From Chlorobiota bacterium (lineage in GTDB: Bacteria > Bacteroidota > Bacteroidia > Bacteroidales > Prolixibacteraceae), in contig JAADGO010000021.1 in assembly GCA_013152355.1 (NCBI GenBank), positions 1 to 36,150 of the forward strand: a stretch of 36,150 bases of DNA. The letters are read 5' to 3'. This document shows positions 1 through 29,175 of this stretch, one piece after another. Made by a program: the position numbers and the translations under genes. Within the stretch, counting starts at the first letter, position 1. Every line of letters starts with the position of its first letter. Below the pieces are notes generated by a model. That model saw nothing but the letters and a program-made list of their open reading frames with translations, was not told the DNA's origin and ran no database searches.

Positions 1-1355
1 GAAGTTATAAAAATTCATCCAAACTGGTAGCATTCTTTGGCCGTGTTAATATGAATGTCAATGATGTATTCTTTATGACGGCCAGTGCCAGATACGAAGG
101 GTCGTCCCGGTTTGGTGCAGACAACAAATGGGGTTTGTTCCCGGCCATTGGTGGTGGGGTAGATTTAGCCAGTTTTATAGATGCTGATTATATTGACAAC
201 CTTAAATTACGTGCTAATTATGGTTTGACAGGAAACCAGCCGTCACAAAATTACCTTTCGTTGCTTCGTTTTGGCCCTCAGGGCAATTTCTTCTATAATG
301 GGACTTTTGTACCAGGTTATGGGCCGGTAAGCAATGCTAATACGGACCTGCGCTGGGAAAAGAAAGGTGAAATAGATATCGGGGTTGATTTTTCATTCTT
401 TAAATCCAGGCTGTATGGTTCTTTCGACTATTATACAAGGACAACAACAGATTTATTATTCCAGTATGAAGTACCGGTTCCTCCAAACCTCTATAATATA
501 GCATGGCTGAACCTGGGGAATATAAAAAGCAGCGGACTGGAATTATCACTTTCCTGGAATGCCGTTAGGAAAACAGATTTTTCCTATAGCTTGACTTTTA
601 CCCCTTCTTACAGTCTTGAAAATACACTGGTTTCCCTTTCCGGGGAGTATAATGGTGCAGAACTTTCTTATGGAATACGCGACCTGGGTGCCATGGGTGC
701 TCCCGGTCAAAGTGGCGTGCCACTGGTAAGGGCAGAGGAAGGTAAGCCGTTCGGCCAGTTGTGGGCATTAGTGTTCAAAGAAATTGATCCAGACGGCAAC
801 CTGATTTTTGAAGATATAAACGGGGATAATACCATAGACCCCAGTGACAGGCAGGTAGTTGGAAACGGTTTGCCAGACTTTCAATTTGGATTTGGCAATG
901 ACTTTACTTACAAGAACTGGGATATGAGTATCTTTTTCCGTGGTGTATTAGGGCATGACCTTATTAATACCTATCGCGGATTTTATGAAGTACCTAACAT
1001 GATCGGGTCTTATAACCTGCCTAAAACGGCAGCAGATTTGAGAAACGCAACAACAGGTACGCTCTTGAATAACTCTTCAGGTGTTTTGTCAAGTTATCAT
1101 GTTGAGAATGCTTCTTTTGTTTCTCTTGATAACATGAGTATAGGTTATAACTTCACTTTGTCAGAAAAATCTGGATTCAGAAACTTACGGTTGTATATTG
1201 CAGGTAACAATTTATTCTATATTACCGGTTATCAGGGTGTGGATCCGAATCCAAGATATTCAGATGGAGGGAATCCGCTTATACCCGGTGTCGACAGAAG
1301 AAATACATGGTTTAGGACCAGATCGGTATCTTTTGGTGTAAAAGTTGGTTTATAA
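1..1355 (+). CDS. SusC/RagA-family TonB-dependent outer-membrane receptor, 3' part
   Basis: This is the C-terminal part (about 450 residues) of a SusC-type TonB-dependent transporter. Reading is open in frame from base 3, upstream of the first ATG at 51, so the gene begins outside the window. Visible family features are the barrel motif RYEGSSRFG just after the left edge, LTGNQPSQNY, the LWALVFKEIDPDGNLIFEDINGD-type segment ending in GDNTIDPSDRQVVG, the late ASFVSLDNMSIGYNF strand, and the terminal strand SVSFGVKVGL. In this family the barrel sits in the outer membrane and, with a SusD lipoprotein lid and TonB energy, imports glycans or peptides. The susD gene follows at once, so they are almost certainly co-transcribed. 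The substrate cannot be told. The plug and N-terminal domain are not visible. Confidence 0.95.
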   Translation, partial: SYKNSSKLVAFFGRVNMNVNDVFFMTASARYEGSSRFGADNKWGLFPAIGGGVDLASFIDADYIDNLKLRANYGLTGNQPSQNYLSLLRFGPQGNFFYNGTFVPGYGPVSNANTDLRWEKKGEIDIGVDFSFFKSRLYGSFDYYTRTTTDLLFQYEVPVPPNLYNIAWLNLGNIKSSGLELSLSWNAVRKTDFSYSLTFTPSYSLENTLVSLSGEYNGAELSYGIRDLGAMGAPGQSGVPLVRAEEGKPFGQLWALVFKEIDPDGNLIFEDINGDNTIDPSDRQVVGNGLPDFQFGFGNDFTYKNWDMSIFFRGVLGHDLINTYRGFYEVPNMIGSYNLPKTAADLRNATTGTLLNNSSGVLSSYHVENASFVSLDNMSIGYNFTLSEKSGFRNLRLYIAGNNLFYITGYQGVDPNPRYSDGGNPLIPGVDRRNTWFRTRSVSFGVKVGL

Positions 1356-13800: not shown

Positions 13801-14222
13801 ACCAATCCATTTTAAAAAAGGCAGTATTGTTAAAAAGTTGCCTGTTCCTGAACAATGGAGATGGGACTTTTGAAACTGCTGAACTTCCCAAAATGGCCCA
13901 GTTTTCCCCGGTTCGCGATATACTGGTTCGTGATTTTGACCTGGATGGAATGATGGATCTCGTCCTGGTAGGTAATGATTATGCTGTAAGGCCCTCTTTC
14001 GGCCGTTATGATGCCAGTTATGGATGGTGTTTATTGGGTGGGAAAGCCCATGAATATAATGTTTTGATGCCGGTAGGAAGCGGCCTTGTAATAAAAGGAG
14101 ATGCCAGGAGGGTACGCACTATCGAGGTAATGGGGAAACATTATATAGTCGTTGCTGTAAATAACGGAGGCCTGCAATTCTTTCAGCTATTACGGCAGGC
14201 GGCAACATCCCAGGCAGATTGA
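10861..14222 (+). pseudogene. VCBS/FG-GAP-ASPIC lipoprotein (copy 3), broken by two frameshifts
   Basis: This is the third tandem paralogue, now in three frames. Fragment 1 (10861 to about 12187) has a signal peptide ending VFSC (Cys19) and N-terminal propeller loops. It then ends early, while the next frame continues as NINYIYKNNGDLTF, as in the paralogues; a one-base gain (for example the g at 12187) or a two-base loss explains it. Fragment 2 (to about 13686) carries the ASPIC domain (about 12387-12650) and second-propeller loops. At 13680-13693 a perfect 7-base tandem duplication (tagcttc twice) shifts the frame; removing one copy gives VASLDQLASQITGLKKKYPNY, then SDFGGKTATDIFG, matching the family. 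Fragment 3 runs to 14222 and contains RYDASYGWCLLGG. Net shift is not zero, so no full protein is made unless the changes are assembly errors. The three pieces otherwise look well conserved, so any decay is recent. Confidence 0.9.
13680..13693. repeat. Perfect 7-base tandem duplication breaking VCBS copy 3
   Basis: The unit tagcttc is present at 13680-13686 and 13687-13693. Deleting either copy restores an uninterrupted family-like reading frame through the conserved LKKKYPNYSDFGGKTATDIF region. Confidence 0.92.
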
Positions 14223-14304: not shown

Positions 14305-17300
14305 TCAGTGGTAACTTTCCGTCCGGGTGTTGTACTCTTTCAAATAATCCTGATGCTCACGGTCAGAAGGGTAAGACTCATCGGAGCTGTATGGATAACG
14401 ACTCATACTGTGAAATGGCAAAGGCAATACTGTTTTCCCGGTGGCAGTATTCATATCCCCGTCTTTTACCCAACCCACGCTGTGGATCAAAAAGTCCCTT
14501 TTCCATCCTTTTGGTAATTCAGGTAAACTTCCGGCATCAAACTCAATGGATGTTTCATCTCCTGCATTTTTAATAATGTATTTATCGTCTGCTGCTGTAA
14601 GCAGGGGCAATACATCGCCGTAACGTGTATAGTTACCCAACAGGTCTCTCCATTTTTGTCCGGTTGAAACACTATCATAATCGAACCAATGAGGCCCATA
14701 CCTGCCACCTTTACGATAAGTGCGTGAGAATCCTCTGTAATGCAGGTCGGCGTAGCATGGGTCTAATATATTTGCATGGATGGGTGCCGATGGATTACCG
14801 TTCGAATAAAATATATAATCCCAATAGATTTCCATATTGGTACGTATTCGTATTCGTGTATCTGAAGCAGGTATTTTTCCTGAAAGGTCAACCACAATAG
14901 TTTTATCTTTTCCCATGGGGAAGCTGAGGTTATCAATGATTGTTTCCCATTCGCCTTCTTTATTTATTGCCTGAATGTAGGGCGGGACTAATTTTATCCT
15001 GCCCGATTGTGCAATGGATGCATTTATACTCGCATCAGACGGGAATATCCAGCCATTCAGGAAAAGGGTTAAGTTTTTAGAACTGTCAATTTCCCCCAGG
15101 TTTAAAACCAGGTCGGTTAGTTCTGTGACCCCCTGATATTCCGTAGGTTTTAAAATAGAGATGTAGTTATCATCCTTTTGGGAAATAAACGGAAGAAGGT
15201 TGTCGCCCCTCTTGTTGGTTGCAGATACAGGGAGGTGTTTCTCCCCTACCTGGAAAAGTTTGAACCCCGGGGTAGGAGAGGGCATAAACCGCTCGTCTAC
15301 GAAAACCTCAATTGAGTCCGGGTGGTCGAGTGCAATAAGTTGGATCTGGTCAGAATAGATGGTCTCCCACAGCTCGCCTGTAACCTGTATTTTATATTTC
15401 CCATCCTGTGGTTTTAATAATTCACCAGGAACTTTAATGTAATCCACAGAGGGCGCAGGACTGGCATATTTCATTGTTTTATCTCCTCCCATAATACCCA
15501 GTGGCATGCCAAGAGCGCTCCGCCACATAATGTCTTTGACAAAAACATATTTTTCGCCATCCCACGTATAAAGAAAAGGGCACGACCCTTTCAGGGATTG
15601 TTCTTCGATAAGGCTCTGGTCGGTTCCGGGGAAAAATATGTTTTGAGGAACGCCATTTGTCCATAAAATACGTATTACATCAGCTTTTGACCGGGGGCCT
15701 AACCCGAAAAGTATATTAGGGGTGGTTACAACTTTCGACTGGTATAAATTCCCGGCCCGCATTTCAATTTTGGCTCCGATCCCATAGTAATTATTCTTAC
15801 CACTTCCTGTCCTTAGTCCAACAAGTTTTATTTTTACGAAATGATTGTTGCTCCCTCCATCATTTCTCAGGAGATGGATGCCCCCATTCATCCCGGCAAT
15901 AACAACATCCAAATCCCCGTCTTCATTATAATCAAAAGTTAAAATCCCTTTGCCTGATTTTAACTCTTCAGGCAAAATGTCCTCTACAACATAATATGTG
16001 CCTGTTTTATCATTATGATAGAGGAATACGCCATTGCCATTTTCTGTATTTGATTTGCCGACAACAAAAAGGTCGAGATACCCATCGTTATCAAAATCGA
16101 GGAAAGAAGCATCGTATGCCTGGACATTCTGTAAGGTATGGGCCAAATCTTTTGATGTTTCGTCAATCTTAAAGCTACCATCCCCCTGGTTGCGGTATAA
16201 TTTACAGTTGCCTGCCTTAGATGATGTTACAAACAGGTCTAAAAAACCGTCATTATTATAATCCCCCACAGTAACGGAACTTGACCCTCCTTCACTTTTC
16301 AATCCGCTTTCTTCAGTAATGTCCTTAAAAATGCCTTGCCGCTGGTTAGAATACAGGGTGTTGGATGTATCTGTGTTTACCACAAAGAGGTCAATGTCCC
16401 CATCATCGTCAAAATCACCAAATGCTGCATCCGTGCTGGATACATCCCCACCGGATAAATTTGATGCTTTTGCCTGCTCAATGAAGGTGCCATCAGCATT
16501 ATTGCGGTAAAGCAGGTTTGAGTGTGGCCTGGTTACAAACAGGTCCAGGTCCCCATCATGGTCAAAATCAAAAAAAAGAGATTTGCCCCCCTCCGCTTTA
16601 TCCCCGACTCCGGCTTTATCTGTGACATCAATGAATGCCCCTTTGCCGGTGTTTTCATATAAGATATTAGCCCCGTTTTTAACTATATAAAGGTCAAGGA
16701 ACCCGTCATTGTTATAATCGGCAAATTTGGAAGAAATACCTATCCCCTGATGCCGGATACCTGCTTCTTCAGTAACATCTTTAAACTTCCCCCATTCATT
16801 ATTTAGTAAATAGGATTTATAACTTTTGGACTGGGGGTCAAAAAGCCCGAAGAACAGGTCAATATCCCCATCCCCGTCATAATCAGATGCAGAAAGGGGC
16901 ATAGGGTTTTTAACAGTTACATCAGTTTCTTGGCTTGACTTCCGGTTTTTTTGGAGGTCGAGCCCGGCAGATGATGTTATATCGGTGAACCGTATTGCTT
17001 CAAGTAAAGTTTTCCAATCGCCGGTTTGAACCCCTTTTTGTTGTTGGTCGAATGTTATTACAGGAGATCCGATTAAAGAGCCTCCAGGCCCTTTTAAATC
17101 CATGATCCCTGCCTGGTATGGAGAGGTTACTTTTAAATAATTGTGGAAAATCATAAATGAAACAGCAGCTTTGTCATTATTCCCGCCCTGTAGTGCAGCA
17201 ATTGTTTTATCGTAATATTCAACCGCCTCTTTTGGGAATTTAGGGAAAATCTTTTGCAGTTCTTCCATTTGGGCGAGGGCCTCACCGGCATGGTTTTTAC

Positions 17301-17856
17301 GAATCAGTATTTCAATTAAATTTAACCGGGGTACAATATTCCCGGGTGCATTTTTAATCAGTTCTTCTGTATATTCCTGTCGTTTTTGTAATGATTCTTT
17401 GTCTGTCGATGATGAGTATAATTCAGCGAGGTTGTATAATGATTTTACGTGGCCGGGAGAAAAACTGATCCCCTTTTCAAGCTCTTTAATCGCTTGTTCA
17501 GGCTTATTGCTCATCTCATACACTTTTGCCAATATCAGCCTTATATCCGGGTCTTTTGGGTTCATTTTAATGGCTTTGTTGAGCCATTCTTCTGCTTCCT
17601 GGTATTTACCCATTCTTAAATAAACAATCCCCAGGTTCGCATAACCCAATACTTCTGTTGGGTCAAGCTCTACAAGTTTCAGGAACTGCTCCTCGGCTTC
17701 CTTTATTTGATTCTCTTCAAGATAGGCTAACCCGAGTGTTTTTGTAGTAATCATTTCTCCTGCCGAAGCGGGGCTTTTACTTTTTTGTTGCTTACAGTTG
17801 TTGAATAAGAACGTGACTACCAGTAATATCAATAACCCAATATATTTGTATTTCAT
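14305..17856 (-). CDS. TPR - VCBS/FG-GAP - ASPIC/UnbV lipoprotein with long C-terminal extension
   Basis: This 1183-residue lipoprotein (signal ending FLFNNC, Cys21) has a layered architecture. Residues about 40-240 are tetratricopeptide repeats (LGLAYLEENQIKEAEEQFLK, LGIVYLRMGKYQEAEEWLNK). Residues about 300-660 are FG-GAP/VCBS blades (DYDGDGDID, DYNNDGFLD, DFDHDGDLD, DFDDDGDID). ASPIC/UnbV lies at about 669-745 (YGIGAKIEMRAGN, NILFGLGPRS). About 430 further residues begin with GSCPFLYTWDGEKYVFVKDI; I recall this tail from TPR-ASPIC proteins of other phyla, but its function is unknown. It is the last gene of the ten-gene minus-strand block, 7 bases after the second LivJ-like gene. TPRs suggest a protein-protein scaffold in the envelope. 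It is intact and converges on the plus-strand VCBS pseudogene across 82 AT-rich bases with no convincing terminator. Confidence 0.92.
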   Translation of the reverse strand: MKYKYIGLLILLVVTFLFNNCKQQKSKSPASAGEMITTKTLGLAYLEENQIKEAEEQFLKLVELDPTEVLGYANLGIVYLRMGKYQEAEEWLNKAIKMNPKDPDIRLILAKVYEMSNKPEQAIKELEKGISFSPGHVKSLYNLAELYSSSTDKESLQKRQEYTEELIKNAPGNIVPRLNLIEILIRKNHAGEALAQMEELQKIFPKFPKEAVEYYDKTIAALQGGNNDKAAVSFMIFHNYLKVTSPYQAGIMDLKGPGGSLIGSPVITFDQQQKGVQTGDWKTLLEAIRFTDITSSAGLDLQKNRKSSQETDVTVKNPMPLSASDYDGDGDIDLFFGLFDPQSKSYKSYLLNNEWGKFKDVTEEAGIRHQGIGISSKFADYNNDGFLDLYIVKNGANILYENTGKGAFIDVTDKAGVGDKAEGGKSLFFDFDHDGDLDLFVTRPHSNLLYRNNADGTFIEQAKASNLSGGDVSSTDAAFGDFDDDGDIDLFVVNTDTSNTLYSNQRQGIFKDITEESGLKSEGGSSSVTVGDYNNDGFLDLFVTSSKAGNCKLYRNQGDGSFKIDETSKDLAHTLQNVQAYDASFLDFDNDGYLDLFVVGKSNTENGNGVFLYHNDKTGTYYVVEDILPEELKSGKGILTFDYNEDGDLDVVIAGMNGGIHLLRNDGGSNNHFVKIKLVGLRTGSGKNNYYGIGAKIEMRAGNLYQSKVVTTPNILFGLGPRSKADVIRILWTNGVPQNIFFPGTDQSLIEEQSLKGSCPFLYTWDGEKYVFVKDIMWRSALGMPLGIMGGDKTMKYASPAPSVDYIKVPGELLKPQDGKYKIQVTGELWETIYSDQIQLIALDHPDSIEVFVDERFMPSPTPGFKLFQVGEKHLPVSATNKRGDNLLPFISQKDDNYISILKPTEYQGVTELTDLVLNLGEIDSSKNLTLFLNGWIFPSDASINASIAQSGRIKLVPPYIQAINKEGEWETIIDNLSFPMGKDKTIVVDLSGKIPASDTRIRIRTNMEIYWDYIFYSNGNPSAPIHANILDPCYADLHYRGFSRTYRKGGRYGPHWFDYDSVSTGQKWRDLLGNYTRYGDVLPLLTAADDKYIIKNAGDETSIEFDAGSLPELPKGWKRDFLIHSVGWVKDGDMNTATGKTVLPLPFHSMSRYPYSSDESYPSDREHQDYLKEYNTRTESYH

Positions 17857-17863
17857 CTGTTTA

Positions 17864-19045
17864 TTATTTAGGTGCTTTTGCCCGGAGAGCTACCGGGCAT
17901 CCGTCCTTTATTATCATTAAACCAACATCGCCGATACGGCTTCCGTTTACATCAAATTTTATTTCGCCTGTAACGCCGTTTTTATAATTTGTTCCTGCAA
18001 ATGCATCAACAATTTTATTGCGGTCGGGGCCTGCCCTCTTTATAACCTCGATAATAACATTTATACCATCGTAGGCAAAGGCAGCAGCTGCACCCGGTTG
18101 ATAACCATAGGCTTTTTTGAACTCCTTCTGAAATGCAATGCCTTTATCGGTAAACCAATGGCCTGAAGATACCAATATCATATCCTCAAAGATTGCCCAA
18201 TTTGGGCCCAATGCTTCTTGAGCATCCATAGTTGATAGTGCCCCAAAAATGGTTTGTGCCATATTCCGTTGCTTTAACATGGGTATTATTTTCGAAGCAA
18301 ATGGGGTATCTCCAAATAATACAATGCTTTTTCCACATCATTTTTTTCTATATCACTTAGGATTCCCGGAATATCTTTGCCAGATGATTTATACAAAAAC
18401 TGTTTGTCACTTGCAATATCCATTGAATCGGCAATTTTAAGGAAAGTATTAACCGCATGTTGAGAATCGTAATCGTTTGAGGCAATGATTGCCACATTTC
18501 CGGGTTTCCTTTTTATATATATTTCCTGAATCAAAGCAATTGCCTGTTGCCTGTCGTTTGGGATACACCTAAAATACCATGGGACGAAAGCCTGCGACCT
18601 GCGACAGGGTCATGTCGGTTGCCCGTGATGACAAAAAGGCTGTTCTGGTTTTTGCTGCCACTTGTTCAGCGAGATGCGCATTCCGCCCATCAAGAGCCCC
18701 CATTATTGCTAACACTTCATCTTCAAACACTAAGTTTACAGATTCTTTTGAGCCTGTTCCCCAGGGCCCCTCTGTTGAGCGGATGATTAGGTGGTATGGC
18801 CTGCCAAAATACCCTCCATTTTCATTGGCTTGCCGGATAGCTAATTCAGCACCGTGTTTCGCAGGCAGGGCTTCCGGACTGGGGATTAGAAGCCCGATTT
18901 TTACTATTTCGGCCTGATCTGTTTTATCTGCTGTTGTAGTGTGGTGTGAAGTGGCATGGCCTAAAGTCTGAGCCCCGGTTATGGCCGATCCGGACACAAA
19001 CACTATCAGTAAGCTGACTATAGATATAAACCTAAATTGAATCAT
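17864..19045 (-). pseudogene. LivJ-type periplasmic ligand-binding protein (Peripla_BP_6), second copy, frameshifted
   Basis: Three pieces together make a roughly 394-codon paralogue of the neighbouring intact gene (19133-20446). Piece 1 (19045 to about 18600) has a signal peptide and VKIGLLIPSPEALPAKHG, the start of a type I periplasmic-binding fold. At 18591-18604 a perfect 7-base tandem duplication (cctgcga twice on the plus strand) shifts the frame; removing one copy gives TLSQAFVPWYFRCIPNDRQ, aligning with TLTETRIPWVIRCISDDRQ of the intact copy. Piece 2 runs to about 18325, where a missing base (acaatgc where acaattgc is expected) shifts it back; the repaired sequence reads KAIVLFGDTPFASKIIPMLK. 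Piece 3 contains AAAAFAYDGINVIIEVIKRAG and GVTGEIKFDVNGSRIGD. The two changes cancel, but stops between them truncate the protein. The gene sits between an intact binding protein and the TPR-ASPIC gene in the same transcript order. Confidence 0.88.
18591..18604. repeat. Perfect 7-base tandem duplication breaking the second LivJ-like gene
   Basis: The unit cctgcga (plus strand) lies at 18591-18597 and 18598-18604. Removing one copy restores the LivJ-like frame across the conserved PWYFRCIPNDRQ segment. Confidence 0.92.
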
Positions 19046-19132: not shown

Positions 19133-20446
19133 TTATTCAGATGTACTTTTATTATTTGCCGGCTTATCATAGGTCAGTGGCGAAGGAGGGAAAAACACAA
19201 ATTTGCCATCGCGCACCTCAGCCATCCAAATTGAGCCGATATCATTCCAGGAGGCATCAAAGATAATCTTGCCGGTAACACCCTTATACCCCTGAAATGT
19301 TTTTAAGTCGGTAAGTACATCGCGGATAAGCACACGGTTAAGGCCTACTTTATGAATCGCATCAATAATAATATTCATTCCGTCATAAGCATGTGCCGCA
19401 AATACATCCGGTTCCATCCCATATTTGTCGTAATAATTTTTATTGAATGCTTGCAAAGCTGAGTCATTCAAAGTTGGATTATACTGGCAGGTAGTAACCA
19501 GGCCTTCGGCATCTTTACCGGCAATTTTTAAAAGCTCCGGCGACATGAGCCTGTCAGAACCAAATATGGGTTGTTTCATACCCATTTTCCGTATTTGTTT
19601 AATAATAAGTGCTGTTTCTTTTGCATTTCCCCAGAGGACAATGGCATCAGGAGATGAATCAATCATGCGTTGGATTTGGGTGGTAAAATCTGTATCACCC
19701 TCGGCATACCGTACCTCAAGAACAAGAGGATAACCAATACGAAGCACCGCATCTTTGAACTCCAGGATACCAACCCGCCCATAGCGGCTGTCTACACGCA
19801 ACACTGCTACCCGGGAATGCCCTTTTTTGCGGTAGATATAGTTTACCAAAGCATAACTACTTTGCCTGTCGTCTGAAATACACCGGATTACCCAGGGAAT
19901 TCGTGTTTCAGTAAGTGTAGGGTCGGGATCCCCGGTATTAACCATGGGTATTTCCAGTTTAAATGTCACTCTTAAAGCAACATGGGTATTTATACCATCA
20001 ATTGAACCCAGGAAAGCCCATACTTTCTCATCGTCCATTTTTACAACCTCATTGGCAGCAGCACCCCATAAACCCACATCGTTATGTGGCATTATTTTGA
20101 AAGGAAGGCCATTATAGCCACCTTTTTTATTAGCCTCATCTACGGCAAGGGTTGCCCCCTGCAGCATTTGAATGCCCTGTGGCACCATTGCTGAGCCTTC
20201 TAAAGGCCCTAAAAACCCAATCCTGACTTCGGTAAGGTCGGTAGGAGGGGCTTTTTCGCGTCCGGCACCGGTAAAAGCCTGTGGTTTATCAAAAAAATTA
20301 ATGTAAGCCTTCTGAAACCTGCCGTATGGTATCATATCATCAGGTGTTTTACCATAATTCATTTTATGCTCCTGGCCGTTTACATCCAACACAGAAAAAA
20401 GTATTGCAAAGATAAAAAACAACAATGCCTGAATTTTAGGTTTCAT
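19133..20446 (-). CDS. LivJ-type periplasmic ligand-binding protein (Peripla_BP_6), intact copy
   Basis: This 437-residue exported protein has an N-terminal signal peptide (hydrophobic residues 6-20, probable cleavage near VNGQE) and a type I periplasmic-binding fold from about residue 70: EVRIGFLGPLEGSAMVPQG, GATLAVDEANKKGGYNG, VWAFLGSIDGINTHVALRV, PDAIVLWGNAKETALIIKQI, AAHAYDGMNIIIDAI and GVTGKIIFDASWNDIG. Relatives bind branched-chain amino acids, amides, urea or aromatic acids and hand them to an ABC permease. No permease or ATPase gene is nearby, so here it may act as a sensor, scavenger or carrier for the cytochrome and propeller proteins of the same block. It lies 14 bases after the propeller gene upstream and is followed by a broken paralogue. 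The ligand cannot be predicted. Confidence 0.9.
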   Translation of the reverse strand: MKPKIQALLFFIFAILFSVLDVNGQEHKMNYGKTPDDMIPYGRFQKAYINFFDKPQAFTGAGREKAPPTDLTEVRIGFLGPLEGSAMVPQGIQMLQGATLAVDEANKKGGYNGLPFKIMPHNDVGLWGAAANEVVKMDDEKVWAFLGSIDGINTHVALRVTFKLEIPMVNTGDPDPTLTETRIPWVIRCISDDRQSSYALVNYIYRKKGHSRVAVLRVDSRYGRVGILEFKDAVLRIGYPLVLEVRYAEGDTDFTTQIQRMIDSSPDAIVLWGNAKETALIIKQIRKMGMKQPIFGSDRLMSPELLKIAGKDAEGLVTTCQYNPTLNDSALQAFNKNYYDKYGMEPDVFAAHAYDGMNIIIDAIHKVGLNRVLIRDVLTDLKTFQGYKGVTGKIIFDASWNDIGSIWMAEVRDGKFVFFPPSPLTYDKPANNKSTSE

Positions 20447-20460
20447 AATATGGTTTTTAG

Positions 20461-21612
20461 TTATTTAAGTTTTTCACCCCGGCATACACCTTTAGATGTT
20501 GCAAGCCAGATATTATCACCTTGTATGTCGACTCCACTTACAAAATTATGAGAAATTGAAGTGGGTGCATCCACTTCTTTTAGCCCAGAATCATTGGTTA
20601 TCAGTATTTTCCCTTTTTTACTGTTTTTATCTTTCTGGTAAGACACCCAGGTATCACCATCAAAACTACTTAATCCCAAATCAGTACAGAGCCATACTAC
20701 AGAGCCATCGGCCTTGACGAAGTTAATAAAGTTGCTGATTAACCCGCTATCGTGGTCAAAATAACCTTTCCAGTGTGTCCCGTCATAACGGCTTAATCCA
20801 AAGTAAGTCCCCACCCATAAGATATCGTCTGCGTAGGATACTCCTGTAGTAATATTATGTACCACGCCATCGTCAGGAAACAGGTCTATCTCCATTTCCC
20901 CATCGGGGTCAGTATAATCCCTGAACCCTTTTGTTTTGGGGTTGTACTCAATTACCCCGCCTCCCCATGCAGCAATCCATATTTTGTTGCCGCCGGCACA
21001 AACTCCATAAGTCCAGGGTTCATGCATGGGTGCATTCCTTTCTGTATAAATACCCCATTCTTCGGTATAGGTATCGTAATGCCCGGCTCCACCACCGGTA
21101 GCCACCCATACATCTTTCCCATCGCAAACAACCGAATAAATCACATCATTGGGGAGGCCACTGTTAAACTGGGTGAAAGTGTAAAACCTGCCTGCCGACC
21201 AGCGAGTTAGCCCTCCAAGAGTACCTATCCAGATATCTCCTGTAAGTTCGCTTACATCAATTGAGATCACCCCTGAATGAGCAAGGCCATCTTCTACGGT
21301 ATAAGTCTTCCACTCATTATTTTCATAAACTGCAAGGCCTGCATTTGTCCCAACCAGAACCCGTTCACCATCTATACGAACACAGAATGCTTTATCGGCG
21401 GGCAATCCGTCTTCCTTTGTAAATGTTTTCCAGTTGCCATAAACAGGCATCACCCCTAATTCTTTTTTTATATCAGTTTTAATACTTTTAGTAGCGGGTA
21501 CTTCTAAATCTGACTTGTTTACATCCGTTGTAAACCCTAAAAAACATCCTCCCAGAATTATTAAAGAAAATATTTTGGCTCCTGCTGCGAATTTTTGAAT
21601 TGTAGTTTTCAT
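20461..21612 (-). CDS. Exported two-component-regulator-type beta-propeller (Reg_prop repeats)
   Basis: This 383-residue protein carries repeated propeller strands of the type found in the sensor domain of Bacteroidota hybrid two-component systems: WKTFTKEDGLPADKAFCV, NEWKTYTVEDGLAHSGVISI, IWIGTLGGLTRWSAGRFYTF, DVWVATGGGAGHYDTYTEEW, ILWVGTYFGLSRYDGTHWKG and NIWLATSKGVCRGEK. There is no transmembrane segment after the propeller and no kinase, receiver or DNA-binding domain, so it is a stand-alone propeller, not a regulator. The N-terminus is hydrophobic, with LGGC at residues 20-23, possibly a lipobox, though the residues after the cysteine are also hydrophobic. It lies 32 bases after the cytochrome-propeller gene and 14 before the LivJ-like gene. 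Its likely role is an envelope binding or scaffold protein. Confidence 0.85.
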   Translation of the reverse strand: MKTTIQKFAAGAKIFSLIILGGCFLGFTTDVNKSDLEVPATKSIKTDIKKELGVMPVYGNWKTFTKEDGLPADKAFCVRIDGERVLVGTNAGLAVYENNEWKTYTVEDGLAHSGVISIDVSELTGDIWIGTLGGLTRWSAGRFYTFTQFNSGLPNDVIYSVVCDGKDVWVATGGGAGHYDTYTEEWGIYTERNAPMHEPWTYGVCAGGNKIWIAAWGGGVIEYNPKTKGFRDYTDPDGEMEIDLFPDDGVVHNITTGVSYADDILWVGTYFGLSRYDGTHWKGYFDHDSGLISNFINFVKADGSVVWLCTDLGLSSFDGDTWVSYQKDKNSKKGKILITNDSGLKEVDAPTSISHNFVSGVDIQGDNIWLATSKGVCRGEKLK

Positions 21613-21644: not shown

Positions 21645-23657
21645 TTAATGGTATTCAGGGTCGTTTTTATAGTATTTTGCATCCCTTAAAGATTTAAGGT
21701 ATTCAACCAGGTCATTAAGTTCGTCTTTCTTCATATCGTTTGCTACGCCATGTTTGTCGTCATTATTAAATTTTGTCCATAATTCTTCAAGCGTGGCGGC
21801 ACGTCCATCGTGTAAATAGGGTGGCGATTCATAAATATTATTTAAATGGGGTACATCTAATAGCATAGGGTCATCTGTTTCAGACAGGGTGCCAACATCT
21901 GTCATTTGCTTATTTGTGAAATATGGTGGTGGGTGGCAGGTTGCACATTGGTTGTAAACCGGGATTTCTTCCCCGTAGTTTGTATGTGTCCGGTAATAAA
22001 TTTTCTTCCCTCTTTTCTGTGCCTCAGTTAAATGCCCTGAAGGGTTATACCTTAGGTTAGGTGGGTTTTTTATGCCGGTAACAATATAGGCAACCAGTGC
22101 ATCTAATTCATCGTAATCAAATGCTTCTGTTCTTGTCAATACCGTTGAGAAACGCATACCATCCTGTTTGTAAATACTTGAGTTTTTCCCATTCCATTTA
22201 TAAGGGGGGGTGTCTCCAATATCACGCAAACTTCGTGTGTTGGCAAGGTTTCTTCCCATATCTGCTCCTGCCATATTATATACAAGCCCATCCTCGTGCG
22301 AATCGGGGTGGCAGGTATAACAAGCATACTGGTACTGGAAAGTATGGCCTGCATTATTGAAAAGCCTGCGCCCTTTGCGTGCAACAGTTATCCTTGAAGG
22401 GCCATTAAGATTTATGGTTTTAATGGTCTCCAGGTTTTCCGTGCTAATAACAGCAATCCTGTCTTCTAACCTTTCGGCAACATAAAGGTTTTTCCCATCA
22501 GGGGAAAGCACCAGCCCTTTAGGGTTAGCTCCTGTTGGGATACGTTTCAGGACATAACGACTGCTGATTCCGAGGTGGTTTGAATAATAATCGAGTTTCT
22601 TTTGAGTTGACTCGGCAAGAAGCGTCCGTATTGCATTAAGGTCAATTACCGTAATTACATCAGCCCCCGAATGACTGATGAAAGCTTTTTGCCCATCCGG
22701 AGTAATGACTATGTCAAAAGGGTCAGGGTAATATGCATTTGGCTCATCTGTTAACAGCTGAATGACCCTGCCCTCATTGCCTTGTTCAATAATCCCAATA
22801 CCATGAGTCATCATCCACCCTTTTTCAACCTGAATAGAAGGGATTAAGTTTTTTGGGCGTATGAGTGTAGCAATAGCCATATCCCCTGATGGCGTAAATG
22901 CTACATTTTCCATTAAATATGCATTGTCGAACATTTTGCGTTCTTTAACCATTTGTGTAGCAGCATCAATTACTGTGAGTTCAGTTATAGGTGGAGTCTC
23001 AAATGGCATGGGTAGTGTTCGCCTGCTGGTTACATAAGCCTGGCTCCCATCGGGGGAAAAAACTGCAGCTACCGGGTTATTCCCTGCTACTAAGCGTTTT
23101 ATTTCAGTTTTAGTTTGCAGGTCGATAATTGAAACCTCAGATGAATACGAATCGACAACATAAAGGAATTTTTTATCGGGGCTGAATGCAAGTTCGGCCG
23201 GGCCGCTCCCGGTTTTCAGGGTATCAACTACTTTTAATAAAGAGAGGTCGATCTCATATACATTATCAGCCCACTGGTTACTGACAAAAGCTGTATTCCC
23301 GTCACTTTTTATTGCAACACTATGAGGCCTCTCTCCAACAGCTATTTTGCCTGTAACTTTGTTTGTTTGAGTATCTACAACCAAAAGTGCATCCCCATCT
23401 TGTGCAATCACATATAATTTGCTCCCATCGGGCGAAACAGCCATATTGAACGGCGATAAATAGTCTTCATTTATTAATTTCGCAACGATTCCATCTTTTT
23501 GTGTGTATACATGGCATGAAATACAATTCAACGGATGGTCGTCAACAGCAGTCATATAGTTAACATGTAGCCGAGACACTTTATGAACTGATATAATCAA
23601 TAAGCTAATTATTACCAGTCCACCAAGGATAAAAAATAATTTTTTATTCTTTTTCAT
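21645..23657 (-). CDS. YVTN beta-propeller fused to cytochrome-c-peroxidase/MauG-like module, three c-type haem sites
   Basis: This 670-residue protein has one N-terminal membrane segment (residues 7-24) and no lipobox, so it is probably anchored in the inner membrane facing the periplasm. A first haem motif, CISCH, is at 45-49. Residues about 60-430 form a YVTN/40-residue propeller (MAVSPDGSKLYVIAQDGDAL, VAIKSDGNTAFVSNQWADNV, LVLSPDGKNLYVAERLEDRI). The C-terminal third resembles di-haem cytochrome c peroxidase/MauG proteins: CYTCH at 446-450, CATCH at 571-575, and VPHLNNIYESPPYLHDGRAATLEELW, the usual late signature. Related proteins reduce peroxide or oxidise a partner protein; here the reaction is unknown. 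Its start overlaps the haem-propeller lipoprotein gene by 14 bases, which implies coupled translation and probably an electron-transfer partnership. Confidence 0.9.
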   Translation of the reverse strand: MKKNKKLFFILGGLVIISLLIISVHKVSRLHVNYMTAVDDHPLNCISCHVYTQKDGIVAKLINEDYLSPFNMAVSPDGSKLYVIAQDGDALLVVDTQTNKVTGKIAVGERPHSVAIKSDGNTAFVSNQWADNVYEIDLSLLKVVDTLKTGSGPAELAFSPDKKFLYVVDSYSSEVSIIDLQTKTEIKRLVAGNNPVAAVFSPDGSQAYVTSRRTLPMPFETPPITELTVIDAATQMVKERKMFDNAYLMENVAFTPSGDMAIATLIRPKNLIPSIQVEKGWMMTHGIGIIEQGNEGRVIQLLTDEPNAYYPDPFDIVITPDGQKAFISHSGADVITVIDLNAIRTLLAESTQKKLDYYSNHLGISSRYVLKRIPTGANPKGLVLSPDGKNLYVAERLEDRIAVISTENLETIKTINLNGPSRITVARKGRRLFNNAGHTFQYQYACYTCHPDSHEDGLVYNMAGADMGRNLANTRSLRDIGDTPPYKWNGKNSSIYKQDGMRFSTVLTRTEAFDYDELDALVAYIVTGIKNPPNLRYNPSGHLTEAQKRGKKIYYRTHTNYGEEIPVYNQCATCHPPPYFTNKQMTDVGTLSETDDPMLLDVPHLNNIYESPPYLHDGRAATLEELWTKFNNDDKHGVANDMKKDELNDLVEYLKSLRDAKYYKNDPEYH

Positions 23658-25098
23658 TTTTGTTCAGGCTTTTAATGGTGGGACTTTGCTCAGTTTCATA
23701 AGAATCTTCAACAGGAATGGAAACCGGAGGTTTCTTAACAGACAAAGGCACAACATTGTTAGGGGCAAGCTCAGGGTCCTGGTGGCAGCCTACGCAACCT
23801 CGCCGTTCAAACGGGCGAATCCATATCCAGCCTGAGGGCCCATATAAAATATTACCATCTTTATCAAGTGTTTGAAAGCGAATAGGCGTATCTGCAATTA
23901 CTTTCAGGTAAAAAGACCCATCGTCCTCAACAGGGACAATGCCCATACTTTTATCAATACCCAGTACCTCAACCTTAGTAGCTTTTGCATTGTCTGATAA
24001 ACCTGCATCATCCGGTTGTGCTATTACATTAATATCCTGGCAGAGCAGCAGCCCTGTTGATTTTTCCGGGTTAGTATCGTCAGGCAAATTTTTTGGCCTT
24101 GTAAAGGCTTCAACTAAAACAGGCTCAATAACGTAATAGCCCGGTTGTTTGTATATTGGGGCACCTAATGATTTATCCTCCACTGAAAAACTATATAGCC
24201 CAACCGGGCCGGCATCAGAGGGGCGGTAAGAAACAAGCATTCCCCCCGATTGCCTGGGTAAAACAGAATAAAAACTTCCTGTAATTCCTGAAGTAAGGTT
24301 AACCTTAGTAAACAACGGCCTGTTTTGATTAATAGAAATTATATCTCCACTATTTGGGTTACCGTTTTCCCATTCGATAAAGTAAACAAACCCATCTCCC
24401 GTTTCGTAAACCTGGTTATTCAGGATACTGCTACCCGGCCCTTTGTAAAATAATTCGGTTTTTGTACCATTGGGCCTTATTGCCATATACATCATATCGC
24501 CAGGTTGAGGGAACAATTGTTTAGTAAGCATCAATATACGGCCATCATGAAGTACAGTAGTGGTATAGTCGAAATGTGGTTGAAATGTAATTTGACTAAC
24601 ATTTGACCCGTCTAAATCCATGGTATACAAAGCATGTACCGGACCGGTGCCTGTTTCAGGCATTTGCCTGCTGAACACCAAACGGCCACCAGGAAGATAA
24701 GCTGGCCCGTAACAGGATTCTTCAAAATGGGTGATTTTTTTACTGGTTTTGTTTTCCAGGTTCATTTCCCATACCTGCCAGCTATCGTTTTCCTTTTGTT
24801 GTGCTGTGAAAAGCAAATGTTTTGCATCATACGAAATATCGGGGGAACAGGCAGAATAAAAATCAGGGGTCAGGATTATTTCAGGTACTCCTGGTTTGTC
24901 AGGGTTAATTGCTACTATCTGTGCTCCTTTATATTTGTGAGCTATGGCCTTCCCGTGGATGTCAAAATTGCCAGCGGGTACCCGGGTAAAAACAACCATG
25001 CCTTCAAGGGATTGATTCCTGCAGGAATTCAAACACAGGCTGGCTAATCCAATGGCAACAATATAACCAATACGGAAAATGATCTTCATAGGATTCAT
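23644..25098 (-). CDS. Beta-propeller lipoprotein with one c-type haem site, resembling part of hydrazine synthase alpha
   Basis: This 484-residue protein has a lipoprotein signal (SLCLNSC, Cys26), TolB/WD40-like propeller strands at about 30-330 (SPDISYDAKHLLFTAQQ, GPAYLPGGRLVFSRQM), then a beta domain with VPVEDDGSFYLKVIADTPIRF and GWIWIRPFERRGCVGCHQDP, haem motif CVGCH at 435-439. From memory this arrangement resembles the propeller plus middle domain of hydrazine synthase alpha-subunit-like proteins, which occur well outside anammox bacteria; it does not imply hydrazine chemistry here. A short polar tail of about 45 residues follows the haem site, so the full C-terminal haem domain of the true enzyme is absent. 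Its ATG overlaps the upstream stop (ATGA at 25098-25095), and its end overlaps the cytochrome-propeller gene by 14 bases. ATG codons 1 and 4 are both possible starts. Confidence 0.85.
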   Translation of the reverse strand: MNPMKIIFRIGYIVAIGLASLCLNSCRNQSLEGMVVFTRVPAGNFDIHGKAIAHKYKGAQIVAINPDKPGVPEIILTPDFYSACSPDISYDAKHLLFTAQQKENDSWQVWEMNLENKTSKKITHFEESCYGPAYLPGGRLVFSRQMPETGTGPVHALYTMDLDGSNVSQITFQPHFDYTTTVLHDGRILMLTKQLFPQPGDMMYMAIRPNGTKTELFYKGPGSSILNNQVYETGDGFVYFIEWENGNPNSGDIISINQNRPLFTKVNLTSGITGSFYSVLPRQSGGMLVSYRPSDAGPVGLYSFSVEDKSLGAPIYKQPGYYVIEPVLVEAFTRPKNLPDDTNPEKSTGLLLCQDINVIAQPDDAGLSDNAKATKVEVLGIDKSMGIVPVEDDGSFYLKVIADTPIRFQTLDKDGNILYGPSGWIWIRPFERRGCVGCHQDPELAPNNVVPLSVKKPPVSIPVEDSYETEQSPTIKSLNKNEKE

Positions 25099-26816
25099 GG
25101 ATGTACTATTTCAGATTCTTTTATTGTGATAAATTGCCCGGCCTTAATGTTTTCCAGCACCTGGGCCTTCCCTGATGGCCAGATAACTTCAATACTATCA
25201 ACCATTTCATTATTACCGAGGCCAAAATGTAACCTTGGGTCGTTTTGAGAAAGGTACCCACTTGAACTTTTCTTTTGGGTAAATTGTTTGATATCCCCGG
25301 AAACAACTGTTACTCTTGCGCCAACACCATCCCTATTGCTTTCATCTCCAATAAGTAGCAATGATATCCAGTTATTTTGGTTTCCCTTATTATTGCGAAG
25401 CAGTGACCCGGGGCCATTCAGGTTGACAATATAAGCATCAATATCCCCATCGTTGTCATAATCGCCAAAGCATGCTCCCCTGCCTACCAGTTCTTCCTTG
25501 AAGTAACTGCCCCGTTCTATAGAAACGTCAATGAATTTTCCTTCCCCATTATTCTCAAACAACTGGTCTTCCTGCCCATATAGATGTTTCAACTCGCCAT
25601 TCACCTTAAATAAGTCAAGGTCGCCATCATTGTCGTAATCCAGAAACGATGATGCCCATCCGACAAACTGGCCACATGCTACAGCAATCCCCGCATTGTA
25701 CGACATTTCACTAAAAACGCCACCCCCTTCATTTTTATATAAAGAACAATAAACATCATCTGAAACAAAAAGGTCGATTAAACCATCGTTATTATAATCG
25801 GCAAAGTCGACAGACATACTAATTGTTGATTCACCTACCTGGTTGAATGCCACTCCAGACATTATGCCCCGGTCTACGAATTTTTCGCCTTGTTCATTGT
25901 GATACAGGTAATTTACCATGTGGTCGTTTGATACGAAGATGTCAGTAAATCCATCGTTGTCGTAATCTGCAGCACCTACCCCCATTGCTCTGCCATCTTT
26001 ATTGAAAATACCCATTTCCATGGTTACATCCTTAAAAGTGCCATCGCCCTGGTTGTGGTATAATATGTCAGGTTGGCCATCGTAAGCCATAGGGCCAGGG
26101 AATCCATCGGGGGCATAATAATAGTTATATTTAGGGTCGAACTCGATATAGTTGCCAACATACAAGTCAAGGAAACCATCGTTGTCATAATCTAACCACA
26201 CGGCACCTACACTGCACTCATTTCCTCCCACACCTGCTTTTTTTGTCACATCGGAAAATTTTCCGTTGCCATTGTTATGATAAAGGACATTCACCCCGTA
26301 ATTGCTTACATATATATCGGGGTAGCCATCATTGTCAAAATCACCAACTGTTATTCCCATACCATACCCCCGGTCGCCTACCCGTGCTTTTTTTGTAACG
26401 TCTTCAAAAGTACCGTTCCCAAGATTACGGAATAAACGATTTTCAGAAGTTTTTACCGGCGGGTGGTCTTCATTATTAAGGCTTAAGCCCTCGGTAAAGT
26501 TGCCATTGCTTAAATACAGGTCTAAGTAACCATCCTGGTCGTAATCAAGGAAAGCAGCACCACCACCGACCGATTCTACAAGGTTGCTTAAATGGTCGTC
26601 TCCAATGGTGTGAGTGAAATTTATTCCTGAAGACTTTATAATTTCCTGAAAGTAGTCATCGTTTGCGGGGGGGAGGGTTAATTCAGCTTGTTTCGTGGTT
26701 GACGATGAAGATTTGTCTTTTGACTGGCAGGCAAACATAGTTATCACCAGTAAAAAAATGATCAAATTAAAATAAGGGCTAGGTTTAATAAACGTACTTC
26801 TTAGTTTCTCTGTCAT
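25095..26816 (-). CDS. CRTAC1-like VCBS/FG-GAP - ASPIC/UnbV lipoprotein
   Basis: This 573-residue lipoprotein (signal peptide ending TMFAC, Cys30) has the compact CRTAC1 layout. A GINFTHTIGDDH segment at about 63-75 precedes FG-GAP/VCBS blades with DYDQDGYLD, DFDNDGYPD, DYDNDGFLD, DYNNDGLID and DYDNDGDID calcium loops. The C-terminal ASPIC/UnbV domain spans about 485-570 (DGVGARVTVVSGDIKQF, SSGYLSQNDPRLHFGLG, SIEVIWPSGKAQVLENI). Proteins of this type are secreted or surface-bound; in bacteria their biochemical role is largely unsettled. It is half the length of the four big VCBS proteins in the window and is linked by a 4-base stop-start overlap to the haem-propeller lipoprotein. An 87-base gap separates it from the radical SAM gene upstream. 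Confidence 0.92.
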   Translation of the reverse strand: MTEKLRSTFIKPSPYFNLIIFLLVITMFACQSKDKSSSSTTKQAELTLPPANDDYFQEIIKSSGINFTHTIGDDHLSNLVESVGGGAAFLDYDQDGYLDLYLSNGNFTEGLSLNNEDHPPVKTSENRLFRNLGNGTFEDVTKKARVGDRGYGMGITVGDFDNDGYPDIYVSNYGVNVLYHNNGNGKFSDVTKKAGVGGNECSVGAVWLDYDNDGFLDLYVGNYIEFDPKYNYYYAPDGFPGPMAYDGQPDILYHNQGDGTFKDVTMEMGIFNKDGRAMGVGAADYDNDGFTDIFVSNDHMVNYLYHNEQGEKFVDRGIMSGVAFNQVGESTISMSVDFADYNNDGLIDLFVSDDVYCSLYKNEGGGVFSEMSYNAGIAVACGQFVGWASSFLDYDNDGDLDLFKVNGELKHLYGQEDQLFENNGEGKFIDVSIERGSYFKEELVGRGACFGDYDNDGDIDAYIVNLNGPGSLLRNNKGNQNNWISLLLIGDESNRDGVGARVTVVSGDIKQFTQKKSSSGYLSQNDPRLHFGLGNNEMVDSIEVIWPSGKAQVLENIKAGQFITIKESEIVHP

Positions 26817-26903: not shown

Positions 26904-27851
26904 TTAAAGCGTGCACGAACAATTAACCCGGGGGGGTATTTCCTGGTGCAGGTTCATTTGGGTTAATCTTTTTTTCCTCATCACCAGGCAATTATTGCAG
27001 GAGGAAAAGATGTCAATATCCCAGAGGTCGGCAAATACCGGCCCGGCATTCATTCTAATGCCATATTCAATCACATTTTCTAATGATTTGATGCCGGGTT
27101 GTTCAAAATAATTGCCTGCAGTTAAAGCATCCAGGGCACCATTACCTGACCTTACAGGGATAATTGTAGCAGATGAAACCCCGGTGCCGAATGCATAATC
27201 AATCGACTTTTTTGCCCATAGCACTCCTTCCGGTTCAGAAAGGAACGGAGGACGAAGCAGGATAAACGCACGTGATGAGATTCCATGATGGGCGAGGAAC
27301 CTGACGGAACGTTCGAAGTCGGCCAAATCCATTTTTTTATTAAGCCGTGGGAGTACCTCAGGATGTACTGTTTCAAGGCCTATTGCCACATGTAATTCAG
27401 GTTTTATCAGATGCTGGAAAAGCAAACAATTTTCATTTATAAAACCCGGGTGGCTTTCAACAATAACGGTTTCAAAATGATTAACCAACGAGGCAATTTT
27501 CCCATAGTCATTGGCAGGGATGGCCCTGTTATCAAAAAAACTGCCACTATTATACAGTTTCAGGTGCTTTGTTACTGGCAATTTTGATAGCGCAAACTCA
27601 ATTTGTGCCGGAATGGAACCTTCAGGTATTGGTTCATCAGTTGTGTTCTTCCAAAGGTCGCACATAAGGCATCGGAAAGGGCATTCGCTATTGGTTAATA
27701 AAATAGTTGAAACATTCTCGATAGCCCCCGAAACAGTACGCTCTTTTTCTATGAAATAACCATAAGGCTTTAACGGGTCGACCGGATTTTTCCCCCCACG
27801 CTTAGAAAGAATCCACTGGCCGTCAATTTGTGTATCCGGGAATTTACTCAT
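26904..27851 (-). CDS. Radical SAM protein, possibly of the COG1244/RaSEA-like group
   Basis: This 315-residue cytoplasmic protein has the radical SAM cluster motif CPFRCLMC (Cys57, Cys61, Cys64) that binds a 4Fe-4S cluster and S-adenosylmethionine. LKLYNSGSFFDNRAIP and VAIGLETVHPEVLPRLNKKM are typical barrel segments and, from memory, resemble the COG1244 group, whose archaeal members act with archaeosine synthase. The C-terminus has four more cysteines (285, 288, 311, 313; CxxC and CxC), which could hold a second cluster or zinc. It overlaps the AsnB-like gene by 8 bases, so the two are probably co-translated and may act on the same substrate. The subgroup assignment is tentative and the reaction is unknown. 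Alternatives are a peptide- or cofactor-modifying enzyme for the exported cytochromes. Confidence 0.88.
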   Translation of the reverse strand: MSKFPDTQIDGQWILSKRGGKNPVDPLKPYGYFIEKERTVSGAIENVSTILLTNSECPFRCLMCDLWKNTTDEPIPEGSIPAQIEFALSKLPVTKHLKLYNSGSFFDNRAIPANDYGKIASLVNHFETVIVESHPGFINENCLLFQHLIKPELHVAIGLETVHPEVLPRLNKKMDLADFERSVRFLAHHGISSRAFILLRPPFLSEPEGVLWAKKSIDYAFGTGVSSATIIPVRSGNGALDALTAGNYFEQPGIKSLENVIEYGIRMNAGPVFADLWDIDIFSSCNNCLVMRKKRLTQMNLHQEIPPRVNCSCTL

Positions 27852-29175
27852 AAATAGCCAGGAATTCCCGTCGGTAGTCTATTTCCTTTTCAGGGAAATG
27901 CCTGTTAAATGTATCCATGTTGGCTACGCCATGTTGGAACCGTCTTTTTGTAAAAACCGGCATATCCATTCCCGTAACGGTTTTAACGCCGCTTGCTACC
28001 ACCTGCCCTTTGAGTCCATAAAGTTTCTCATGGTCCCATTTTGTTATTTCAATAAATGGTATGCCTTCGGCTATTTCAATAACATTTTCTAATGTATAAG
28101 GGCTAAAACCTTCAAAACCCAGGATGTCGGCAGGAGTGTATGTACGCATATACCCTCTGCTTAAACCGCCGGAATAGGTTAAGGAATGTTTCATTTTCCC
28201 TACTCCCCAGCCTTCGTGGTATAACATTAAATTATTTAAGACACTTCGGATGGTTAATTCCGGATTCTCTTCAATTGGGTAATCCTTAAGGTTTTCGTCA
28301 CCACCATCGCCATCAATAATATATTTCCAATCGGGATAACGGGAGCGGATACCTTCAAGTACTGCTAAATTCATTGTGGCAGATTGTATGTCGAGAGGTT
28401 TGTAGTCTTCAACAACTTTTATCGTTTTTTTCCAATCCAATCCGGCTGATTTAATTTCAATGGGTTCGAGGAATAGTTCCATGCCCAGTGCTTTTAAAAA
28501 CTCCCGGGCTTGCTTCAGGTCTTCGCCTTTGCCTTCCACGCTCAAGGTAAATGCTTTTAGCCTGGAGGGGCTTTCTCCGAGTTCCCTCAGCGCATGATAA
28601 GTAAGTAAAAATACGGAGCCGCTATCAATACCTGCTGAAAAAGTGACTCCAATGGGGCCAGTTTGTGCCCTGAATTTCAACCACTTTTTAATTTCTTCGT
28701 ACAATGTACCGATATAATACTCCCCTAATTGCTCTATACTACTCGACTTGAACCTGTTACGTACCGGAGTAAAAAAACGCTGGTAAACCGGGCTCGGGTC
28801 GGGGCAGCCCAGTAATTCAATAGTTGTAATATAGTGGGCAGGAGCCATCCTTGTATACGATGGGTGAAACTGGTCGTCTAAACCCTCTTGTTTCAGGTAA
28901 TTGTGAATCGTATCAATACGCTCGGCAAGTATCAGGCATGGGCCGGCTTTTAATTTTGCTATGAAAAAACGCAACGGACGGCCAATTGACCTTGCCATTC
29001 TTATTGTTTTCCCTTCGACAGCAACGAGGGCAAACTGCCCGTCAATTTTGCGGACAGCCTGTGTGTCTCCTGAGTTAACAAGTTCAATTGCCTCTTCCTG
29101 CGACATGTTGTAGATTATGTTTTTGGAAGGGTCTGTAAGGTCTACAATTCGGTTTACATATTCGTGATTCATCAT
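27844..29175 (-). CDS. Asparagine-synthase-like ATP-pyrophosphatase with glutaminase-like N-domain lacking the catalytic cysteine
   Basis: This 443-residue protein has a degenerate class II glutamine-amidotransferase-like N-domain (about 40-110: KIDGQFALVAVEGKTIRMAR, SIGRPLRFF) but no cysteine at residue 2, so it should not hydrolyse glutamine that way. From about 150 it has an AsnB-type synthetase domain: the PP-loop SAGIDSG at 180-186 (usually SGGIDSS) and YIIDGDGGDEN, equivalent to the second nucleotide-binding loop of AsnB. It therefore probably adenylates a carboxylate and joins it to an amine, as in beta-lactam synthetase or lasso-peptide cyclase relatives, rather than making asparagine; this is inference. 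It starts MMNHEY, so either ATG is possible. It overlaps the radical SAM gene by 8 bases and follows an unknown lipoprotein gene by 20. Confidence 0.87.
   Translation of the reverse strand: MMNHEYVNRIVDLTDPSKNIIYNMSQEEAIELVNSGDTQAVRKIDGQFALVAVEGKTIRMARSIGRPLRFFIAKLKAGPCLILAERIDTIHNYLKQEGLDDQFHPSYTRMAPAHYITTIELLGCPDPSPVYQRFFTPVRNRFKSSSIEQLGEYYIGTLYEEIKKWLKFRAQTGPIGVTFSAGIDSGSVFLLTYHALRELGESPSRLKAFTLSVEGKGEDLKQAREFLKALGMELFLEPIEIKSAGLDWKKTIKVVEDYKPLDIQSATMNLAVLEGIRSRYPDWKYIIDGDGGDENLKDYPIEENPELTIRSVLNNLMLYHEGWGVGKMKHSLTYSGGLSRGYMRTYTPADILGFEGFSPYTLENVIEIAEGIPFIEITKWDHEKLYGLKGQVVASGVKTVTGMDMPVFTKRRFQHGVANMDTFNRHFPEKEIDYRREFLAIYE

Follow-up and report, generated by a model that had tools for sequence, protein, structure and literature searches.

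A predicted glutaminase-less AsnB-like ligase paired with a RaSEA-like radical SAM enzyme in Bacteroidota and Verrucomicrobiota, in some lineages beside hydrazine-synthase-like genes

In archaeosine synthesis, ArcS and a radical SAM (rSAM) enzyme of the TIGR01210 type are joined in one complex and lysine is the nitrogen donor (PMC11298593): ArcS acts as a lysine ligase, and RaSEA next converts the conjugate, of which nothing but the nitrogen is left in place. Carboxylate adenylation by members of the AsnB family is also known from RiPP pathways, where PesC, TsrC, ScdTA and other asparagine-synthetase-like enzymes share a Glu-Tyr dyad. In PesC, whose substrate is a ribosomal peptide and which takes glutamine or ammonia, the dyad Glu363/Tyr368 has been assigned to adenylation, and the Y368F exchange abolishes activity (PMC13060819). 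Regarding hydrazine synthase (HZS), other substrates have already been suspected for the HZS-like genes of Planctomycetota and KSB1 (PMC10732223).

We analyzed a window, by which we mean the whole stretch of 36,150 nucleotides, in which an AsnB-like ligase gene and an rSAM gene are found together with an HZS-like module (Table 1). The two genes overlap by 8 nt (27844-27851) on the start side of the rSAM gene. As in the ArcS/RaSEA system, a ligase is paired with an rSAM enzyme of the TIGR01210 kind and the nitrogen donor would be something other than glutamine; unlike in that system, where ArcS is a relative of TGT, the ligase is AsnB-like, and the rSAM enzyme scores under the RaSEA cut-off. 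ArcS/RaSEA would thus be the closest reaction logic for the pair, as an analogy and not as a matter of membership.

Table 1. Genes of the ligase-rSAM pair and of the HZS-like module in the window
Feature	Position	Strand	Basis or remarks
AsnB-like glutaminase-less AMP-forming ligase, predicted	27844..29175	(-)	443 aa; motifs and fold
RaSEA-like radical SAM enzyme	26904..27851	(-)	315 aa; CxxxCxxC, TIGR01210 homology
FG-GAP / ASPIC-UnbV lipoprotein-like, first gene of HZS-like module	25095..26816	(-)	
HZS-alpha-like protein	23644..25098	(-)	PF18582 65.6 bits, above cut-off; one ERRGCVGCH haem site
HZS beta-gamma-fusion-like beta-propeller / multi-haem cytochrome c	21645..23657	(-)	NF052342
Propeller lipoprotein of HZS-like module	20461..21612	(-)	weak Reg_prop
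Solute-binding protein SBP1 of HZS-like module	19133..20446	(-)	Peripla_BP_6
TPR / FG-GAP protein of HZS-like module	14305..17856	(-)	1183 aa

The original prediction held that the ligase has lost the Cys2 nucleophile of glutamine-hydrolyzing AsnB, has an altered PP-loop (SAGIDSG) and keeps the motif GDGGDEN. After reading the complete reading frame, we found no cysteine near the N-terminus, and the first 36 or so residues are missing as well. The open frame continues upstream for only about 10 codons (453 vs 443 aa), too few for a later-start choice to account for the missing N-terminus. In the structure model, residues 4-6 align with residue 37 of human ASNS, 40 of beta-lactam synthetase and 39 of E. 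coli AsnB, which indicates that the glutaminase start bearing the nucleophile is absent; as modelled, the protein begins about 36 residues late, and the whole Cys2 strand is gone, beyond the cysteine alone. The PP-loop reads S180-A-G-I-D184-S185-G186, as had been stated, and follows the pattern S[AG]G[IV]DSG in 70/70 homologues (SAGIDSG, SAGVDSG, SGGIDSG or SGGVDSG), with the final Gly in all 70 and the canonical SGGxDS[ST] in none. Since the ‘SAG’ part varies among these relatives, it does not belong to the signature, which is the replacement of Ser/Thr by Gly at the end of the loop. The GDGGDEN motif (D288-G-D-G-G-D293-E294) is present, and is accompanied by the dyad E294/Y299, whose E-x4-Y spacing equals that of the PesC dyad, and by K410 (FTKRRFQHG), whose counterpart in a visual alignment is the Lys within WRQKEQFSDG of the same genome's own AsnB. 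Residues S180, G182, D184, S185, D288, G289, G291-E294, Y299 and K410 are each conserved in at least 98.5% of the 70 ligases. C124, in the stretch GCPDP, is invariant as well (70/70), despite the loss of the glutaminase cysteine.

Because the remaining catalytic residues are kept (D-G-x-G-G-D-E, E294-Y299 and K410), there is a high probability that the protein is an active AMP-forming ligase lacking a glutaminase of its own, and we dropped the reading as a pseudo-enzyme or regulator given the invariance of these residues. The modelled fold agrees with this picture, and the earlier description of a glutaminase-less AsnB-family ligase with intact ATP machinery stands. Using AlphaFold2 on 37 homologues, we obtained a model with a pLDDT of 80.9, with low confidence for a large part of residues 292-343, next to the active site. 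Foldseek matched it over its full length to ASNS, beta-lactam synthetase, AsnB and carbapenam synthetase (E 3e-13 to 1e-9), and VIA gave Z scores from 22.2 to 18.9, the Z 22 matches covering 344-376 residues (model 4..443). Searches of the solved structures by sequence, with single proteins and with profiles, returned no credible relatives; these came from fold comparison alone. Judged by the PF00733 fold of the model, the ATP-binding motifs and the Glu-Tyr dyad, the ligase belongs to the asparagine-synthetase superfamily. It shares with AsnB (TIGR01536, PF00733) the fold, the position of the PP-loop, GxGxDE, E-x4-Y and the Lys before the C-terminal helices, and differs from it in the absent Cys2 and N-terminal residues, the Gly that ends the PP-loop and the invariant stretches YTRM-PAH, GCPDP and YPIE-NPELT, unique to the ligases.

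Besides, the ligase stands apart from ordinary asparagine synthetases; placement with them would have refuted the original prediction. It gave 42.1 bits with Pfam Asn_synthase PF00733 (cut-off 21), in the PP-loop half only, and 41.8 bits with the NCBIfam model TIGR01536, vs a cut-off of 267.1; the best E value of that model was 3e-11 among 37 members of the family. The same genome also encodes a canonical AsnB (MCGI start, SGGLDSS, GEGADE; L122:773-2479), so that the ligase is an extra member, distinct from the housekeeping enzyme; another MCGI-type gene of this genome is spread over two frames (L123). We separated the family from ordinary AsnB by score gaps, a tree being unreliable at about 17% identity. 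Among the 345 Bacteroidota genomes sampled, 22 carry the ligase, each whole match reaching about 640 bits or more, and the only match below that level is one 85-bit fragment. In the phylum of the Verrucomicrobiota locus, it was found in 3 of 241 genomes, one of the three being the centre genome, while a scan of GTDB contigs gave 47 loci with 61-91% identity. No ligase was found on the plasmids scanned, and phage families gave no match. The pattern is kept at 53-91% identity across two phyla and hence is not due to chance; on this sequence evidence, the ligase forms a discrete family. The pair is without a Pfam or NCBIfam model of its own, and we found no publication describing it in the open PMC library.

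The rSAM partner carries C57-x3-C61-x2-C64, and CxxxCxxC is present in 68/68 partners. Four more cysteines toward the C-terminus (C285/C288/C311/C313) occur in about 94-98% of the members, which suggests an auxiliary cluster that a few of them have lost. TIGR01210 (RaSEA) matched 27/27 members scanned, with a best E value of 3e-35; the enzyme of the window gave 97.8 bits, below the RaSEA cut-off of 212, and by these profile matches it is a distant homologue of RaSEA. With such a score, the enzyme may well catalyze something other than a lyase reaction. When its structure model (pLDDT 94) was compared with solved structures, a queuine lyase came first (Z 17.2), in a tie with HydE and Elp3; HydE, biotin synthase and Elp3 fit the model almost equally well. 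In the ligase-rSAM neighborhoods, we saw neither ArcS or ArcTGT partners nor a link to tRNA or preQ0. Two RaSEA-like rSAM genes (about 30% identity) lie on the Streptomyces linear plasmids pFRL5 and pFRL3 (L133:13944-15059 and L134:13944-15059), in a P450 / SHMT / carbamoyltransferase / heptose cluster that has no annotated AsnB-like neighbor and looks like a natural-product pathway.

When the rSAM profile was run on the 345 Bacteroidota genomes, it found the same 22 genomes as the ligase plus one distant 79-bit match, so that co-occurrence in carrier genomes is 22/22. In 63 of 68 loci, the genes are directly adjacent on the same strand; in the other five they share the strand, with gaps of 270-2004 bp. 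The distance matrices of the two proteins correlate with r 0.894 (at most 0.205 in 500 permutations), a value that mainly reflects common inheritance. According to these results, ligase and rSAM almost certainly act in one pathway, and, being always together, they are likely to perform a single biosynthetic step not yet described, which supports the dedicated step with a radical SAM partner that had been proposed.

The neighbors of the pair differ between lineages. In context A, found in marine and sediment Bacteroidota including Maribacter, Lutibacter and Lutimonas, the order is ASPIC - HZSalpha-like - HZSbeta-gamma-like - propeller - RidA/chorismatase-like - SBP1 - [DAHP synthase] - SBP2 - TPR/FG-GAP - ASPIC2 - ligase - rSAM; the window has most of these genes in a rotated order. 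As in anammox hydrazine synthase and the HZS-like genes of Planctomycetota and KSB1 (PMC10732223), an alpha-like gene is followed by a fused beta-gamma-like gene; here, in contrast, the genes are far under the NCBIfam equivalog cut-offs (83 vs 800 for alpha, 246 vs 1250 for beta-gamma, NF052342) and stand in an ASPIC / SBP / TPR operon with the AsnB-like/rSAM pair. Context B, from sediment Bacteroidales, has genes for an S58 peptidase, a URO-D-family methyltransferase and a creatininase-like protein downstream of the pair, and the HZS-like module, where tested, at another place in the genome. In other Bacteroidota lineages (context C), a halogenase/QhpG-like flavoenzyme comes right after the rSAM gene; we counted it in 18 genomes, in two tree clades whose flavoenzymes belong to different subfamilies. 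In Verrucomicrobiota (G499 and G455), too, the HZS-like module is found close to the pair. With neighbors varying by lineage, context points to no single product. The DAHP synthase and chorismatase-like genes give a weak hint of an aromatic carboxylate substrate in context A, weak because a two-domain chorismatase is found in just 4 of the 35 carrier genomes, a count on which we also rejected it as a universal partner of the pair.

The computed fold, the retained catalytic residues, the lost start of the glutaminase, the obligate pairing and the contexts lead us to infer the ligase activity, the amine donor, the order of the steps and the lyase chemistry of the following model. The ligase would adenylate a small-molecule carboxylate and join to it an amine coming from elsewhere than its own glutamine hydrolysis. 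By analogy with archaeosine synthesis, this would yield an amino acid conjugate in the form of an N-substituted amide, in which the rSAM enzyme would then break or rearrange a bond; C-N cleavage is our first choice, and an ArcS/RaSEA-like lyase is possible. The product would be a cytosolic small molecule, handled by the HZS-like periplasmic redox module or by the flavoenzyme, depending on the lineage. We give even chances to the model as a whole, that is, an active ligase without glutaminase start in an obligate pair with a RaSEA-like rSAM enzyme and a chemistry of conjugates. The sequence of ligation and then radical cleavage, drawn from the archaeosine analogy, is put forward tentatively, with the balance somewhat against it, and a bacterial ArcS/RaSEA counterpart on an AsnB scaffold, donating an amine through ligation and radical removal of an amino acid, with a product serving as substrate or cofactor of a non-anammox HZS-like periplasmic complex, seems quite unlikely. 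C124 of GCPDP plays no part in the ligase-then-rSAM model, which counts against it.

One could argue that the ligase is a plain amidotransferase that uses free or separately delivered ammonia to make the primary amide of a small metabolite, with the rSAM enzyme acting earlier or later on a different part of the molecule. The E294-Y299 dyad and K410 of the amidating AsnB enzymes are kept, and PesC accepts ammonia in place of glutamine (PMC13060819); however, no glutaminase gene is conserved beside the pair in the neighborhoods compared, and the Gly in place of Ser/Thr in the PP-loop, together with the highly conserved stretch after GDGGDEN (KDYPIEENPELT), suggests a larger or different substrate, so we consider this reading improbable. 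A similarly low probability goes to the pair maturing the HZS-like module or supplying it with a cofactor, for instance a redox cofactor from chorismate-derived aromatics. In its favor, the pair is linked with the module in both Bacteroidota and Verrucomicrobiota, RidA/chorismatase-like and DAHP synthase genes are in the same operons, and the three genomes that have the HZS-like beta-gamma gene, among the 345 of Bacteroidota, are all pair carriers (about 2e-4 by chance with 22 carriers, by our own arithmetic and uncorrected for kinship). This gene was also present in 14 of 35 pair-carrying genomes, a set partly picked from genomes known to have the module. Nevertheless, 19 of the 22 sampled carriers are without the module, so the product of the pair has other uses, and the resemblance of the single-domain Rid-like gene to chorismatase is weak. 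Of the two, the pair is thus the more widespread, with the HZS-like module often as its client.

Intramolecular closure of an amide within one substrate, as done by beta-lactam synthetase, is highly improbable in our view. This enzyme (1MB9) is among the best structural matches, shares with carbapenam synthetase (1Q15) an AsnB fold, no working glutaminase and a match to the ligase over the full length, and likewise is without the glutaminase nucleophile. Yet identity to the ligase is just about 17% (12% for carbapenam synthetase), the E-x4-Y arrangement of AsnB is present, no clavulanate/carbapenem or other beta-lactam pathway genes are among the repeated neighbors, and a RaSEA-like rSAM enzyme takes their place as partner. 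Modification of a peptide or protein, whether RiPP maturation, lasso-like cyclization or action on a neighboring lipoprotein, is very doubtful. AsnB-like enzymes are known in RiPP clusters (PMC13060819), and one lineage has genes for a creatininase-like (MftE-like) protein and an S58 peptidase downstream. On the other hand, an all-against-all comparison of short ORFs (18-140 aa, ≤6 kb of the pair) revealed no conserved precursor peptide, with no short ORF common to more than 3 of about 64 loci; the gaps around the pair in the window measure 88 bp and 20 bp. Neither is there a leader peptidase among the neighbors recurring across lineages, and in many genomes the flavoenzyme is the sole constant neighbor. 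The nearby precursor gene that had been suggested was therefore not found, leaving the analogy with lasso cyclase unsupported, and a small-molecule substrate, by analogy with ArcS/RaSEA, would fit better than a lasso-type peptide.

These results name a sharply bounded enzyme pair whose reaction logic is open to test. They also place the non-anammox HZS-like proteins, an enigmatic group, in a conserved operon and provide them with a biosynthetic partner in the cytosol, and this linkage is the part most likely to surprise the specialist. Pair carriers include cultured marine Flavobacteriaceae (Maribacter, Lutibacter and Lutimonas), as well as Verrucomicrobiota; with operon and partner conserved, the function of the HZS-like proteins becomes approachable by genetics in cultured bacteria.

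Finally, in the window, SBP2 is apparently broken into ORFs 18569-19045 and 17864-18280, while in relatives the gene is uninterrupted and encodes about 374 aa, and a large FG-GAP/VCBS protein (10861-14222) is divided over three ORFs (10861-12207, 12149-13753 and 13797-14222), a pattern suggestive of frameshifts, errors of assembly or a pseudogene. The ERRGCVGCH haem motif of the HZS-alpha-like protein is lost in L129:9306-10745. In Verrucomicrobiota, the ASPIC-like and HZS-alpha-like regions are apparently fused (L120:5363-8296 and L132:11103-14753), judging by how long the ORFs are and where they lie. Near the pair, L007, L013, L015 and L016 have a URO-D/MtaA-like methyltransferase, and in L106:16376-18550 corrinoid-protein-like and corrinoid-activator-like genes, recognized by eye, adjoin the HZS-like module.
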